Positions 2,227 through 26,125 of a stretch of DNA of 42,461 bases are shown here, piece by piece (the first letter of the stretch is position 1; every line of letters starts with the position of its first letter). The position numbers and the translations under genes were made by a program. The notes beneath the pieces were generated by a model that worked only from the letters and a program-made list of their open reading frames with translations, ran no database searches and had not been told where the DNA came from. Source of the stretch: Thermococcus sp. CX2 (GTDB taxonomy: Archaea > Methanobacteriota_B > Thermococci > Thermococcales > Thermococcaceae); contig NZ_SNUQ01000007.1 of NCBI RefSeq assembly GCF_012027555.1, positions 1 through 42,461 of the forward strand, read 5' to 3'.

Positions 2227-3225
2227 ATGGAAGTAAAGCTCTCCCTCTTCGGTTTTGGCAACGTTGGAAAGGCCGTCGCGAGGGTTCTTCTTGAGAAGGA
2301 AGCCTTCTTCCGCGAGCGCTATGGAGTCGAGTTCAAGGTGGTGAGCATAGCCGACACGAGCGGAACGGTGTGGCTCCCGGAGGGCATCGACCTGAGGGAA
2401 GCGCTCACCGTGAAGGAGACCTTCGGAAAGCTCTCGGCATGGACTAACGACTACGAGGTTTACAACTTCACACCGAAGGAGGCGGTTCAGGAGATAGACG
2501 CAGACATCGTTATCGACGTGACGAACGACAAGAACGCCCACGAGTGGCATCTAACCGCTTTAAGGGACGGAAAGGCCATCGTTACAAGCAACAAGCCGCC
2601 GCTGGCCTTCCACTACGCCGAGCTTAGGGAGGAGGCCGAAAAGAGGAACATCCCCTACCTCTTTGAGGCGACGGTGATGGCAGGAACGCCGATAATAACG
2701 CTCCTCCGCGAGGGACTGAGAGGAGACACCATTGAGAGAATTGAAGCCGTCCTCAACGCCATAACAACCTTCATCCTGAGCGAGATGGAGCACGGCCTTG
2801 ACTTCGAGGATGCGCTCAGAAAGGCCCAGAAGCTGGGCATAGCGGAGCGTGATCCGAGCGGCGATATATTGGGCATCGACGCCGGCTATAAGGCGACCAT
2901 CCTTCACTGCCTCTCCTTCGAGCCGATAACGTTTGATAGGGCGAGCGTTAAGGGCATCGTGGAGGTAACGCCCGGGGAGATCGAGAGGGCAGTGAAAAAG
3001 GGCAAGACTATAAGGCTCGTCGCGACTGTGGAAGAAGGAAAAGTTACCGTAGAGCCGAAGGAGGTGCCGAAGGCCTCGCCACTCGCAGTTGAGAGCCACG
3101 AGAACGCTGCGGTGATAAAAACTGATCTCCTCGGCGAGCTGGTGATAAAAGGCGCTGGAGCCGGACTGAAGGAAACCGCCAGCGGCGTGGTGAGCGATAT
3201 AATCACCGCCGCACTGAGGCTTTAG
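2227..3225 (+). CDS. hom: Homoserine dehydrogenase
   Basis: This 332-residue enzyme reduces aspartate semialdehyde to homoserine with NAD(P)H, at the branch to threonine, methionine and isoleucine. The Rossmann motif GFGNVGKAVARVL is at residues 9-21, and the conserved homoserine dehydrogenase core is clear: VTSNKPPLAFHY, then EATVMAGTPII, and the NAITTFILSEME and ERDPSGDILGIDAGYKATIL stretches around residues 175-230, which include the catalytic lysine region. No ACT regulatory domain follows, so this is the short monofunctional type common in archaea. The ATG at 2227 has GGGTG upstream. No other threonine genes are adjacent. Confidence 0.93.
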   Translation: MEVKLSLFGFGNVGKAVARVLLEKEAFFRERYGVEFKVVSIADTSGTVWLPEGIDLREALTVKETFGKLSAWTNDYEVYNFTPKEAVQEIDADIVIDVTNDKNAHEWHLTALRDGKAIVTSNKPPLAFHYAELREEAEKRNIPYLFEATVMAGTPIITLLREGLRGDTIERIEAVLNAITTFILSEMEHGLDFEDALRKAQKLGIAERDPSGDILGIDAGYKATILHCLSFEPITFDRASVKGIVEVTPGEIERAVKKGKTIRLVATVEEGKVTVEPKEVPKASPLAVESHENAAVIKTDLLGELVIKGAGAGLKETASGVVSDIITAALRL

Positions 3226-5134: not shown

Positions 5135-5482
5135 ATGAAGCAGGCCACATTTTTCACCCTCCTCTGCGTTGGCAGGTTCTTTTTCCCGCACTCGGAAATA
5201 GATGGGGATTTTCCAGCCAGTTTTACCAGTTGCTTACAGCCTATTTCATCATAACACTCGGGATAGTTTTCAGTTATGAGCTCCTCCATGACTTATTCTC
5301 ATCTAGGAGAGACGAATTTTCGAGGGCGACTCAAAAGGAGAAATGGGAACTGAATATCAGGCTACTTTGCGTTCCTCTTGGCAACCCCTCGGGATGAAAA
5401 ACTGACGCTCATAATTGCGCGGATACTCGGGATAATGTCTGCATACATATTCACAAAGCTTAGGATGAGGGAATTCCAGTAG
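5135..5482 (+). pseudogene. Decayed small membrane-protein gene with two frameshifts
   Basis: The 586-base stretch between sepF and rrp42 has no intact gene. On the plus strand a broken gene can be pieced together from three parts: MKQATFFTLLCVG from the ATG at 5135; then, one frame over, FYQLLTAYFIITLGIVFSYE and LLHDLFSSRRDEFSRATQKE (about 5221-5345); then back in the first frame YFAFLLATPRDEKLTLIIAR and ILGIMSAYIFTKLRMREFQ, ending at the TAG 5480-5482. The pieces alternate hydrophobic segments and basic loops, as in a two- to three-helix membrane protein. The frameshifts lie near 5175-5215 and 5345-5358. No family is identified. A 66-codon minus-strand frame over the same bases looks like a chance reading. 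No convincing promoter is seen. Confidence 0.5.
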
Positions 5483-13961: not shown

Positions 13962-14411
13962 TTGAGTGAATCGATCGACATAGTTTATGAAGCTTTGGGG
14001 CGCTATATCGACGGCCTCTGCGGCTCCACATACATCGGAACCGCGAGGGGAATGGTGGTCCTCTATAGAGGGGCAGAAATCCACCATCTAACGCCCCTCA
14101 AAGAGCCGCTACCGTTCCTGAACCTGTTCTACCGTAAGGGCACGGTGGAGATAGTTGGCGTATGGCGGGAGGAAAAGAGCGAGGCCTTCTTCCTGAGAGC
14201 GGCCGCGGCGGATGTCAGACTTTTCGAAGATGAAAGAACGATAAGCATCATCACATACCCCCGCACCGGGGACATGCAGGAGAGGGGAATGCTGATAATA
14301 ACGCTCCACGCCAACATGGGTATGGCCAAAACCCTAAAGAGCATAATACAAGAGGAGACCCGCTTCATAAAGAAGGAAGAGGTGGTGATTTCATCGAGGG
14401 TCAGCATCTGA
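13962..14411 (+). CDS. Uncharacterised Thermococcales protein
   Basis: The product is 149 residues from a TTG at 13962 (AGGTGG five bases upstream); GTG codons at 13959 and 13953 are alternatives. The sequence is mixed alpha/beta: MSESIDIVYEALGRYIDGLC, a central strand-rich part with GTARGMVVLYRGAEIHHL and GMLIITLHANMGMAKTLKSI. The pattern resembles small flavin-binding-type domains (DUF447-like) but I cannot name it with certainty. Its stop is followed within 6 bases by the convergent HEPN-like gene, and the C/D RNA lies across the junction on the other strand. Confidence 0.6.
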   Translation: MSESIDIVYEALGRYIDGLCGSTYIGTARGMVVLYRGAEIHHLTPLKEPLPFLNLFYRKGTVEIVGVWREEKSEAFFLRAAAADVRLFEDERTISIITYPRTGDMQERGMLIITLHANMGMAKTLKSIIQEETRFIKKEEVVISSRVSI

Positions 14412-14451
14412 AGCTCATCACTCCTCAGAACTCGGCAAACTCATCATCCCA
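14397..14451 (-). ncRNA. C/D box guide RNA overlapping the end of the HEPN-like gene
   Basis: Reading the minus strand, all four boxes occur in order: C box ATGATGA (14447-14441), 12-base guide GTTTGCCGAGTT, D' box CTGA (14428-14425), spacer GGAG, C' box TGATGA (14420-14415), 10-base guide GCTTCAGATG, and D box CTGA (14404-14401). GGG before the C box pairs with CCC after the D box (terminal stem). Such RNAs direct 2'-O-methylation at the base paired five positions before D or D'. The first guide complements AACUCGGCAAAC; its first 11 bases match a conserved 23S stretch (near E. coli 1670) that I recall. The RNA covers the last 11 codons and stop of the HEPN-like gene on the same strand; GCTTTAAGG at 14478-14486 could be its own TATA box. 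Confidence 0.85.
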
Positions 14452-23033: not shown

Positions 23034-24503
23034 TTAATTTTCTTCCATGAACTTTTCCACAGCAAGTCTAGTTTCTTCATAGGTCTTTCCGGCGAGTATT
23101 ATCACCTTGTACTGAGGATTCTCCGGGTTGTCCAGCTCCTTTATCACGTAACCATTCTGCTCTATCTCGGCCTTGATGGCGTCAATAGCCGCCTTACCGT
23201 AGACATCCTCGAGTAAAATCCAAGCCTTGTTGCTAACCCATCCACCGATGATGATGACGTTCTTGTCCGATGGCAGGCTTGTAAGGTCGGTGTCCTCGAT
23301 GATGAAGTCGTAGACGTTCCCAGTCGCTTCAACCTTCGGGGCGGTTATTGAGATCGTCCGGGTAACGGTGGCAACGCGGACAAAGCGGTAGCCTTCAACC
23401 CCGGTTATGGCGCCGTTCTCATCCCTCGTGAAAACGGCCGTTAGTTCAAGACCCCAGTCAGTGGGCAGCTTTATAGAATCTCCCTCCCCAATAAAGACCC
23501 TCGGGAAGCTCGCGAGGCTCTCGTTCACGTGGAGGTACAGGGTGTAGAGCCCGTTGGCCGGGTCTATATCCCACACCCACTGTCCCTTGTAGACCTCGCC
23601 GTCCGAGTACTGCTTGACCTTCTCGTAGTACCAGTAGTCGTAGGTAACCATCTGCACGTTGTTTATCCCCACAAAGAAGTCCGTCGGGGTGAAGAGGAAG
23701 ACGTTCCTTGCCCCAGCTTCGAGAAGCTCGTTTATTCTGGCCGATGGATAGGTATCGTACTCCTCGAAATCCTCCGCACCGTTGGCATCGACGTACATAA
23801 CGTAGTACTTGTCCTCAGTCATCGTTTTGGTCTTGATGAGGCCGCTGGGGTAGGTCAGTTCGATGAGCATCTTGGAAACGTCGAGATTTATATCCAGCAT
23901 TTTTATCTTCCATCCCCCAACGATGATAGAATCTCCAAGGCCTTTGGATTCCGAATCGGCCTCTGTGTAAAAGTAGAAGTACATAGTGTCCCTGCCGTCC
24001 ACGGTCGTTGGGACGACCTTGTAGTCTCCTCCAATGTCAAGGGGGGTGGTGTTCTCGTTGAATATTATTTCGATGCTCCTGTCGAGGAACTCCACCATCC
24101 CCTTGGTAGAGTTGAAACTAACCCGAGAGAAGTTGACCTGAACGACAACCGCATGACCAACCGGCTGGTCACTGACGTTTATCCCAACGTCGGGCATGTC
24201 AATGGGATTGAGCTTGTATGTCTGGTTGTTATCGGGAATTATAACACTGTGATACTCAACCGGGACAGAAACGGTGGCGGTGTAAGTTCCCTGAGATATG
24301 CCATTGAGAACCAGAAAAGCCCCAAGCCTCGAGCCGGTTATCGCATCTTCACCGATGTGGAGCGGCACGCCGTTCACTATCTTGGTTGTGGGAAGAACTA
24401 TTACGGAATTAGCGGAGTTAATGCCCGCAACGGCTCCCTGAACTGGCATGAAAAGTGAGCTCAGAATCGCAAGGCTCACAAACATTGCTAAAGCCTTTTT
24501 CAT
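23034..24503 (-). CDS. S-layer-like secreted protein
   Basis: The 489-residue protein starts with a typical Sec signal peptide, MKKALAMFVSLAILSSLFMP, with cleavage probably around residue 26. The body is strand rich with several possible N-glycosylation sites (NQT, NVS, NFS, NST, NTT, NES). The C-terminal 80 residues (SDKNVIIIGGWVSNKAWILL through KVIILAGKTYEETRLAVEKF) resemble the C-terminal S-layer domain of Thermococcales and other euryarchaeal S-layer proteins. It is shorter than a main S-layer protein (usually about 600), so it may be an accessory or paralogue. GGTGACG precedes the ATG. It is divergent from the C/D RNA and DUF2391 gene. Confidence 0.82.
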   Translation of the reverse strand: MKKALAMFVSLAILSSLFMPVQGAVAGINSANSVIVLPTTKIVNGVPLHIGEDAITGSRLGAFLVLNGISQGTYTATVSVPVEYHSVIIPDNNQTYKLNPIDMPDVGINVSDQPVGHAVVVQVNFSRVSFNSTKGMVEFLDRSIEIIFNENTTPLDIGGDYKVVPTTVDGRDTMYFYFYTEADSESKGLGDSIIVGGWKIKMLDINLDVSKMLIELTYPSGLIKTKTMTEDKYYVMYVDANGAEDFEEYDTYPSARINELLEAGARNVFLFTPTDFFVGINNVQMVTYDYWYYEKVKQYSDGEVYKGQWVWDIDPANGLYTLYLHVNESLASFPRVFIGEGDSIKLPTDWGLELTAVFTRDENGAITGVEGYRFVRVATVTRTISITAPKVEATGNVYDFIIEDTDLTSLPSDKNVIIIGGWVSNKAWILLEDVYGKAAIDAIKAEIEQNGYVIKELDNPENPQYKVIILAGKTYEETRLAVEKFMEEN

Positions 24504-24529: not shown

Positions 24530-24546
24530 TCAAGGTTTATAACTTT
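24530..24546. promoter_or_regulatory. Bidirectional TATA box between the S-layer-like gene and the C/D RNA
   Basis: AAGGTTTATAAC (24532-24543) reads as a TATA box on both strands. In the plus direction the expected start is about 24563, matching the 5' end of the C/D RNA; in the minus direction it is about 30-40 bases from the ATG at 24503. Confidence 0.65.
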
Positions 24547-24563: not shown

Positions 24564-24619
24564 CTGCGATGATGAGTGAATCCAATGCTGACGGGATGAT
24601 GAAACCCCGACCTGAGCAC
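24564..24619 (+). ncRNA. C/D box guide RNA upstream of the DUF2391 gene
   Basis: All four boxes are present in order: C box ATGATGA (24569-24575), 12-base guide GTGAATCCAATG, D' box CTGA (24588-24591), spacer CGGG, C' box ATGATGA (24596-24602), 9-base guide AACCCCGAC, and D box CTGA (24612-24615). TGC before the C box can pair with GCA after the D box. A TATA box ends about 20 bases upstream, giving a transcript start at the RNA's end. The first guide complements AUUGGAUUCA, which I recall as a conserved archaeal 16S sequence (near E. coli 962), with the methylated base predicted as the G after UU. The second guide would target GUCGGGGUU, which I cannot place. Confidence 0.88.
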
Positions 24620-24646
24620 TTACCAACGGGCGAAAGGGGAAAGGAA

Positions 24647-25108
24647 ATGGAAGATAAGCTCGACGAGATATACACCAGCCTTGAGGAGCTCCGCAGGGAG
24701 GTCGAAGAAAAGAAGGCACCCGACAGGCTCGGGTGGGACGACATAGCCCAGGAGATCATCGGAGCGGTAACCTTCGCCCTTCCATTCCTCTTCACTGGCG
24801 AACTTTGGGAAATCGCCAAGGACATATCCGTGGAGCGCTCCCTGGTAATCCTCATCATGACCCTGGCCGTTGCGTATCTCTTCATTGCGAAGTCCCGGAT
24901 AGGTAACCTCAAAAAGGAAGAGCTCTTCCACGTCCCAAAAAGACTTCTCACGGTGACCCTGATAGCGTATCTGATTTCCGCCGGGCTGATATACCTCTAC
25001 GGCATCAACGGGATAGCCGACTTTACAACGGAGCAGTACCTCAACGCGACCATACTTATAAGCACCTTTGCAGTCATCGGAGCGATAACTGTTGACATGG
25101 TGAAGTGA
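24647..25108 (+). CDS. DUF2391 family membrane protein
   Basis: The 153-residue protein has a coiled-coil-like charged start (MEDKLDEIYTSLEELRREVE) and four hydrophobic segments: EIIGAVTFALPFLFTGELWE, SLVILIMTLAVAYLFIA, LLTVTLIAYLISAGLIYLYG and ATILISTFAVIGAITVDMV. The ALPFLFTGELW pattern suggests DUF2391, whose function is unknown. I chose the ATG at 24647, which follows GGGGAAAGGA; starting at 24569 would translate the C/D RNA into 26 meaningless residues. The downstream Toprim gene starts at the very next base after the stop. Confidence 0.72.
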   Translation: MEDKLDEIYTSLEELRREVEEKKAPDRLGWDDIAQEIIGAVTFALPFLFTGELWEIAKDISVERSLVILIMTLAVAYLFIAKSRIGNLKKEELFHVPKRLLTVTLIAYLISAGLIYLYGINGIADFTTEQYLNATILISTFAVIGAITVDMVK

Positions 25109-26125
25109 ATGAAAATCGTCACTGGAAAGAGGTTTGAAGCCTTTGCGGATGAGAACGCACTGATTTTCCCGGAGTATGGGAAGAATAGAAGAGAGCTCGT
25201 TGAGATTGCTGGATCGCTCACAGGCGAGGAGACCGTGGTAACAGCGAGCCTCGAGCTCATGGACCTGATACTCAGCAGGTTCAAGGGCGAGGGACATTTC
25301 CTTATTTACTCCGACACTGGAAAGACCCTAACCACAAGGGAGGCCTATGAGCTGAGGAAATACCTCGACTTCGATCTCCGGGGTGGCTTTACCGGAGAAC
25401 CCTCCCGGGCGAGCGTCCTTTTCGTCGAGGGCAAAACCGACGCGAAGTTCTTCAAGGCCGTTTTTAAGAAGCTGTACGAGTTCAAGGAGAGCAGAGAAGT
25501 TCCAGCGAATCTAAAATTCATTGAGAGGGTCTTCGAGCGCGAGAACTTCGAGCTGTTGAGAAACGAAAATGGCTTTTTGGCAGTGATTCCGAGCGAGGGC
25601 AACTCGGGAGTCATCCGAAACCTGGGCAACTTTATCAGAGCGATGGAAGTCTTTGAATTCAGTGTTGACAAAATAGGAGTCGCCATAGATGTTGATGACA
25701 ACAGAGAGAGTGCGATGGCCTCGATAACCGGGAAGCTCTCCCGGTTCCATCCGGAAAAAACGGCCGCAGGTTTTAGGGTTGGGAAGACAGAGGTGATTCC
25801 CCTAATCATAGGCCTCCCCTTCGAGGACGAGCTAATCGAGTGGAAGAAGCCCACCGTTGAAGATTTAATGCTCCACCTCATAGCGCGGGAGGGACTTCTG
25901 GAGAGAATCAGACCGGCATTAAGAACCCTAAACGAGAGCCTGGGAAGGACGCTAAAGCCCAAAGAGGTCATGTATCTGGCCCTCTCGGCCTACGGACACT
26001 GGGGCAACCTGGAAGGCTTTTACGAGCTCTTTGTCATGCGCTCCCGCTTCAGAAACCTCAAGGCCGTCCTGAGGGAGGCGGGGCTTATGGAAGGGCTTTT
26101 CACCCTCTCAGGCAAGAACCGTTGA
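25109..26125 (+). CDS. Toprim-domain protein (OLD/DUF3226-like), stand-alone
   Basis: The 338-residue protein has the two Toprim hallmarks: SVLFVEGKTDAKFFKAVFKK near residues 105-124 (catalytic-type Glu and DAKFF), and KIGVAIDVDDNRESA near 190 (DxD). Around them are a helical N-terminal region and a C-terminal part with WKKPTVEDLMLHLIAREGLL. Toprim proteins of the OLD and DUF3226 type are nucleases of overlooked function; here no ATPase is fused or adjacent. The start abuts the stop of the DUF2391 gene with no spacer, so the two are co-translated. Nuclease activity and any defence role are inferences. Confidence 0.65.
   Translation: MKIVTGKRFEAFADENALIFPEYGKNRRELVEIAGSLTGEETVVTASLELMDLILSRFKGEGHFLIYSDTGKTLTTREAYELRKYLDFDLRGGFTGEPSRASVLFVEGKTDAKFFKAVFKKLYEFKESREVPANLKFIERVFERENFELLRNENGFLAVIPSEGNSGVIRNLGNFIRAMEVFEFSVDKIGVAIDVDDNRESAMASITGKLSRFHPEKTAAGFRVGKTEVIPLIIGLPFEDELIEWKKPTVEDLMLHLIAREGLLERIRPALRTLNESLGRTLKPKEVMYLALSAYGHWGNLEGFYELFVMRSRFRNLKAVLREAGLMEGLFTLSGKNR

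Follow-up and report, generated by a model that had tools for sequence, protein, structure and literature searches.

Background

Box C/D sRNAs of archaea are 50–70 nucleotides long and are bound to L7Ae, Nop5 and fibrillarin. A small RNA of this kind, sR46 (Rfam RF01130), is already catalogued in heat-loving archaea. Its consensus includes a D guide, CCCCAGAGUGG, with a target at U1098 of the 16S rRNA, a trait of that consensus which membership of the family does not require. The other described systems that are relevant here are C/D RNAs that lie over the 5' ends of protein-coding genes. One study of Thermococcus kodakarensis (PMC4247193) describes 54 C/D box RNAs seen in that organism. Twelve C/D RNAs overlapping the annotated 5' ends of ORFs are reported there. 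According to PMC7994747, which cites Tripp et al. (2017), 7% of archaeal C/D genes have such a 5' overlap, and a 5' overlap lowered the expression of a downstream reporter.

The element described here lies in a 42,461-nucleotide stretch of DNA from Thermococcus sp. CX2 (the window; all positions are on the plus strand unless stated). The sequence at 24565–24618 is an orthologue of sR46 and, like the T. kodakarensis examples, it overlaps an ORF at its annotated 5' end; the ORF in this case encodes a DUF2391 membrane protein. An earlier note on this DNA had described a complete C/D guide RNA hidden in the apparent start of the gene. 'Hidden' is apt for the gene model but not for the RNA, which belongs to a known Rfam family. 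The overlap of a C/D RNA with the 5' end of an ORF is also known in kind. The comparison of start codons across relatives appears to go beyond the known 5'-overlap cases, and a putative start codon inside the RNA in some relatives would be the sole part that extends what we found recorded. A literature search on sR46 yielded little other than wheat stem rust genes, and one on DUF2391 yielded no papers. An RNA named 'sR46' in PMC9014305 (176,232 reads, circular junctions) was considered as expression evidence and rejected. It is a different RNA (1371729–1371790) with another sequence: the RNAs in that study are numbered by genome position, and the RF01130 gene there lies at 87729–87781.

Identity and layout of the RNA

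The full RF01130 model matches positions 24565–24617 with 65.9 bits (gathering score 50, E = 3.2e-13), and the Rfam families ranked after it at this locus score below their own thresholds. The reading as a box C/D guide RNA, first made from the letters of the window, is borne out. Here the boxes expected of an archaeal C/D RNA occur in order, C (RUGAUGA), D' (CUGA), C' (RUGAUGA) and D (CUGA), and a short terminal stem (UGC/GCA) joins C and D. Beginning at the 5' strand of this stem (TGC, 24565–24567), the element continues with a C box, ATGATGA (AUGAUGA, 24569–24575), which has a G at 24568 ahead of it, opens the long reading frame with its ATG, and is conserved in all columns in 100% of 56 genomes. 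The D' guide of 12 nucleotides, GTGAATCCAATG (24576–24587; equivalently GUGAAUCCAAUG), is followed by the D' box CTGA (CUGA, 24588–24591), a four-nucleotide spacer CGGG (24592–24595) and the C' box ATGATGA (AUGAUGA, 24596–24602), which supplies a second in-frame pair of ATGs. A D guide of nine nucleotides, AACCCCGAC (24603–24611), the D box CTGA (CUGA, 24612–24615) and the 3' stem GCA (24616–24618) complete the RNA. Like the C box, the D', C' and D boxes are conserved across genomes. Boxes, guides, spacer and stem all lie where the earlier note had placed them. Its span of 24564–24619 does contain the RNA, but the two end letters are a single unpaired C on each side, and 24565–24618 is the better extent.

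The C, D' and D boxes and the core of the D' guide (GAAUCCAAUG) are identical to those of the Rfam family, and the terminal stem is the same. However, the CX2 copy is three bases shorter in the region of the D guide (53 versus 56 nucleotides), and its D guide lacks the consensus match to U1098. Because the score for the whole model is above threshold even so, this absence weakens no more than the case for a second target. Simple folding of the RNA gives an unremarkable result (z −1.24), as expected for a C/D RNA, and adds nothing to the support.

A loose C-D'-C'-D pattern has two matches in the window, sR46 and a minus-strand site at 14447. In 200 first-order Markov windows it has none. The latter match belongs to a second complete C/D box RNA (14398–14451, minus strand; C ATGATGA, D' CTGA, C' GTGATGA, D CTGA). 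It overlaps the 3' end of a 110-amino-acid ORF, the stop codon of which falls within the C' box. Its best Rfam match is RF00095, with 43.9 bits, just below the gathering score of 45, and its D' guide pairs with the 23S rRNA around C1812 over 12 bases, including one G-U pair.

Distribution and conservation

Matches to RF01130 were found in 89 of the 94 genomes of the taxonomic family, including all 74 that are near-complete (completeness of 90% or more, contamination of 5% or less). Elsewhere in the phylum, matches are weak and below threshold only. Across the family the boxes and the D' guide are nearly invariant. In the alignment of 56 genomes with the 53-nucleotide form, conservation per column rises from ~50% to near 100% at the second base of the RNA, and drops again immediately beyond the GC in the 3' stem. 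The inner two pairs of the terminal stem are invariant and the outer pair covaries, being standard in 47 of 64 distinct copies; none of 5000 shuffles reaches this count, although related sequences are not independent and the count is therefore supportive rather than a probability. The neighbouring genes are conserved as well, with a divergent gene of 489 amino acids upstream (23034–24503, minus strand) and genes for DUF2391 and DUF3226 downstream. Two observations had been named earlier as ones that would count against a guide RNA, namely poor conservation of the boxes among relatives and conservation that follows codons. The boxes are instead retained in the 89 genomes, and conservation follows the RNA, both in its edges and in the frozen synonymous sites described below.

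A second, weaker match to RF01130 (30–34 bits) is present in seven Thermococcus genomes (G033, in L091 near 1421 on the minus strand, and G018, G019, G025, G043, G057 and G062), and probably represents a related C/D RNA whose guide differs. An exact copy of the C box, D' guide and D' box of sR46 also occurs, with different flanks, at 5206 in a contig assigned to Methanomassiliicoccales (L104) and at 3048 in one assigned to Methanofastidiosia (L115). Neither reaches an Rfam gathering score. These copies could reflect distant homology, independent arrival at the same 16S target, or contigs that carry the wrong label.

Guides and predicted target

The D' guide forms 10 contiguous Watson-Crick pairs with positions 908–917 of the 16S rRNA, a unique match in the 16S and 23S rRNAs of the same genome. 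The complementary segment, AUUGGAUUCA, occurs once in the 16S rRNA and is absent from the 23S rRNA. None of 60 shuffled guides is as good as the real one. The base opposite the fifth nucleotide before the D' box is G911, which from its context (AAUUGGAUUCAACGCC, compared with AAUUCGAUGCAACGCG in E. coli) we take to be E. coli position ~962. The earlier note had proposed a conserved 16S sequence near this E. coli position as the target of the D' guide, and the single occurrence and 10-bp pairing in the organism's own 16S rRNA agree with that proposal. A guide is expected to pair over ~8–10 bp or more with rRNA or tRNA, with its target nucleotide facing the fifth base ahead of D or D'. The D' guide does so; the D guide does not do so on rRNA. 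From this pairing, the D' guide of sR46 very probably directs 2'-O-methylation of 16S G911.

The D guide presents a different picture, and its sequence varies across the family. When it is compared with the organism's own 16S and 23S rRNAs, 65% of shuffled guides do as well. The corresponding guide of the 56- and 61-nucleotide forms, found in some other genera (CCCCAGAGTGG), matches 16S U1098 over 10 pairs (1.7% of shuffles are as good), and the D guides of most Thermococcus and of the 55-nucleotide forms fit rRNA no better than shuffles; these comparisons are approximate, as the guides of relatives were scored on the rRNA of CX2. In the window and in one near relative (L069) a CCCCGA block also lies one base out of register with the D box. 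In this lineage the ancestral 16S target of the D guide has probably been lost, and sR46 here looks like a single-target guide of which the second guide has decayed. A target in the T-arm of tRNA was also considered, where 10 of 11 bases match several tRNAs and 1–2% of shuffles are as good. Since GGGGUUC is generic to T-arms and the pairing contains an internal mismatch, it was retained as a weak lead only.

Promoter and transcript

A TATA box, TTTATAA (24536–24542), lies ~23 bp before the 5' end of the RNA. In the 56 genomes with the 53-nucleotide form, the columns at −32, −28, −27, −23 and −9 are 88–98% conserved, the last of these being an A in 93%. A TATA-like hexamer starts 28–29 nucleotides upstream of sR46 in 60 of the 89 loci. 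In published Thermococcus promoters the TATA box lies at about −30 to −20, with an A-rich element at −10 (PMC5316973, PMC4247193). With this geometry and the conserved spacing, transcription should start at the 5' end of sR46 or within a few bases of it, in line with the earlier placement of the start from the TATA box. Downstream, the DUF3226 gene (25109–26125) abuts that for DUF2391 (TGAATG). It is a conserved neighbour in most relatives and is probably carried on the same transcript.

Start codon of the DUF2391 gene

The frame that an automatic caller would choose begins at the ATG of the C box and runs through the sRNA, 179 amino acids in all (24569–25108), with Pfam PF09622 (DUF2391) at residues 51–172. 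Calling the gene from ATG 24569 would, as had been pointed out, translate the RNA. The likely true coding region, on the basis of Pfam and codon phase, begins at ATG 24647 (24647–25108), 28 nucleotides beyond sR46. The frame from the C-box ATG is continuous into DUF2391 in 57 of the 89 loci, and an open frame in so many genomes is also what would be seen if this were only the start of a protein, with the boxes a by-product of a conserved peptide, MMSESNAD. However, third codon positions are frozen in the RNA interior (pS 0.05, pN 0.04), against a pS of 0.37–0.79 outside it, and neither the match to the Rfam covariance model nor a guide that matches 16S rRNA at the right offset suits a purely coding origin. 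The survival of the RNA where the gene is gone also argues against it, and we give this explanation practically no credence. In several loci (e.g. L077, L084, L086, L087 and L089) DUF2391 has been lost and sR46 is kept, adjoining DUF3226. In these five a change in length breaks the frame through the RNA after nine codons.

The same loci bear on the possibility that the element is a K-turn in the 5' leader, acting as an L7Ae-binding cis-regulator and not as a guide RNA. Such a role has been raised for 5'-located C/D-like elements in T. kodakarensis (PMC4247193), and L7Ae bound here would fall on the start region. A cis-element should nevertheless not persist after the loss of DUF2391, as sR46 does, nor would it need a conserved guide complementary to 16S rRNA, and we consider the proposal very improbable.

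A guide RNA that precedes the coding region is the preferred reading, and further loci are consistent with it. In L029 sR46 is out of frame and DUF2391 is intact from a downstream ATG, and in most members of one genus (g5) the protein starts three nucleotides after the RNA in a different frame. Among the 23 genomes that share the 179-amino-acid layout, codons 28–53 show a third-position excess of 2.19 (1.65–3.16), while in the eight codons 18–25 this excess is absent (ratio 1.09, 95% interval 0.65–1.66). All 23 retain Met27, which corresponds to ATG 24647, with ATG or GTG as its codon. Taken together, the frozen synonymous sites, the RNA outliving the gene, the broken frames and the codon phase from codon 28 make ATG 24647 the more likely translation start in this species. 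What a call from ATG 24569 gives as the first 26 codons is then probably guide RNA and leader, not protein. In one further locus (L049, genome G058) the frame through sR46 runs into an ORF of 427 amino acids that by eye resembles the TnpB of IS200/IS605, as if such an element had inserted just behind the RNA.

An RNA with both functions has also to be weighed, in which the guide doubles as the translated 5' end of DUF2391 and near-leaderless initiation takes place at the C-box AUG in this species too. Consistent with this, the loci with the open frame all have an RNA of 53 or 56 nucleotides, whereas those without it also include 52, 55, 57, 61 and 62 nucleotides; this pattern is partly circular, however, as the loci were chosen by an in-frame domain. 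The predicted leader of ~4–5 nucleotides would count as leaderless under the rule of 8 nucleotides or fewer given in PMC4247193. Six genomes without a downstream start codon, described below, also favour it, in that they show that this gene family can accommodate a start within the RNA. The lack of codon phase in codons 18–25, the retention of Met27 in the window's own group, and the starts after the RNA in another frame in L029 and in most of genus g5 all speak against a dual role, which we regard as unlikely in CX2.

The situation appears to differ in six genomes of three lineages (L064/L076, L075/L080 and L085/L088), where there is no ATG, GTG or TTG between sR46 and the conserved LGWDD motif of the protein. 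The few substitutions between the pairs are concentrated at third codon positions, in L064/L076 and L075/L080 at any rate. The absence of a downstream candidate suggests that the DUF2391 start codon in these genomes is probably in the C or C' box, inside the RNA, with non-standard start codons as the other possibility. The warning of a gene-calling trap thus holds for this species but not for these six relatives, in which translation probably begins inside the RNA. A more speculative extension is that in some Thermococcus lineages sR46 is both a working guide and a translated, nearly leaderless start of DUF2391, so that each transcript would end up as guide RNA or as message, with the level of the membrane protein set by guide assembly. 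We offer this tentatively, and think it doubtful.

Conclusions

We hold with high confidence the joint account, in which the locus is an orthologue of sR46 with its own TATA promoter, a D' guide directed at G911, a D guide that has lost its target, and a DUF2391 protein translated most likely from ATG 24647. The promoter would give rise to a transcript with sR46 at its front that probably continues into DUF2391 and DUF3226. By analogy with established C/D biology, L7Ae, Nop5 and fibrillarin would associate with the C/D and C'/D' motifs, and trimming would release the RNA. Its D' guide, which pairs with 16S 908–917, is predicted to direct the methylation of G911. DUF2391 would be translated from uncut transcripts, here most likely from ATG 24647, and in a few relatives probably from a start inside the RNA.

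For the organism, this yields a corrected gene model at the 5' end of DUF2391 and a clear prediction of methylation by sR46, at G911 of the 16S rRNA. Across the family, sR46 offers a natural set of comparisons: of the two guides in this double-guide RNA, one decays and the other stays frozen. The reading frame through this structured RNA is kept in some members and broken in others, and may be of use in studying how a guide RNA and an mRNA share one 5' end.
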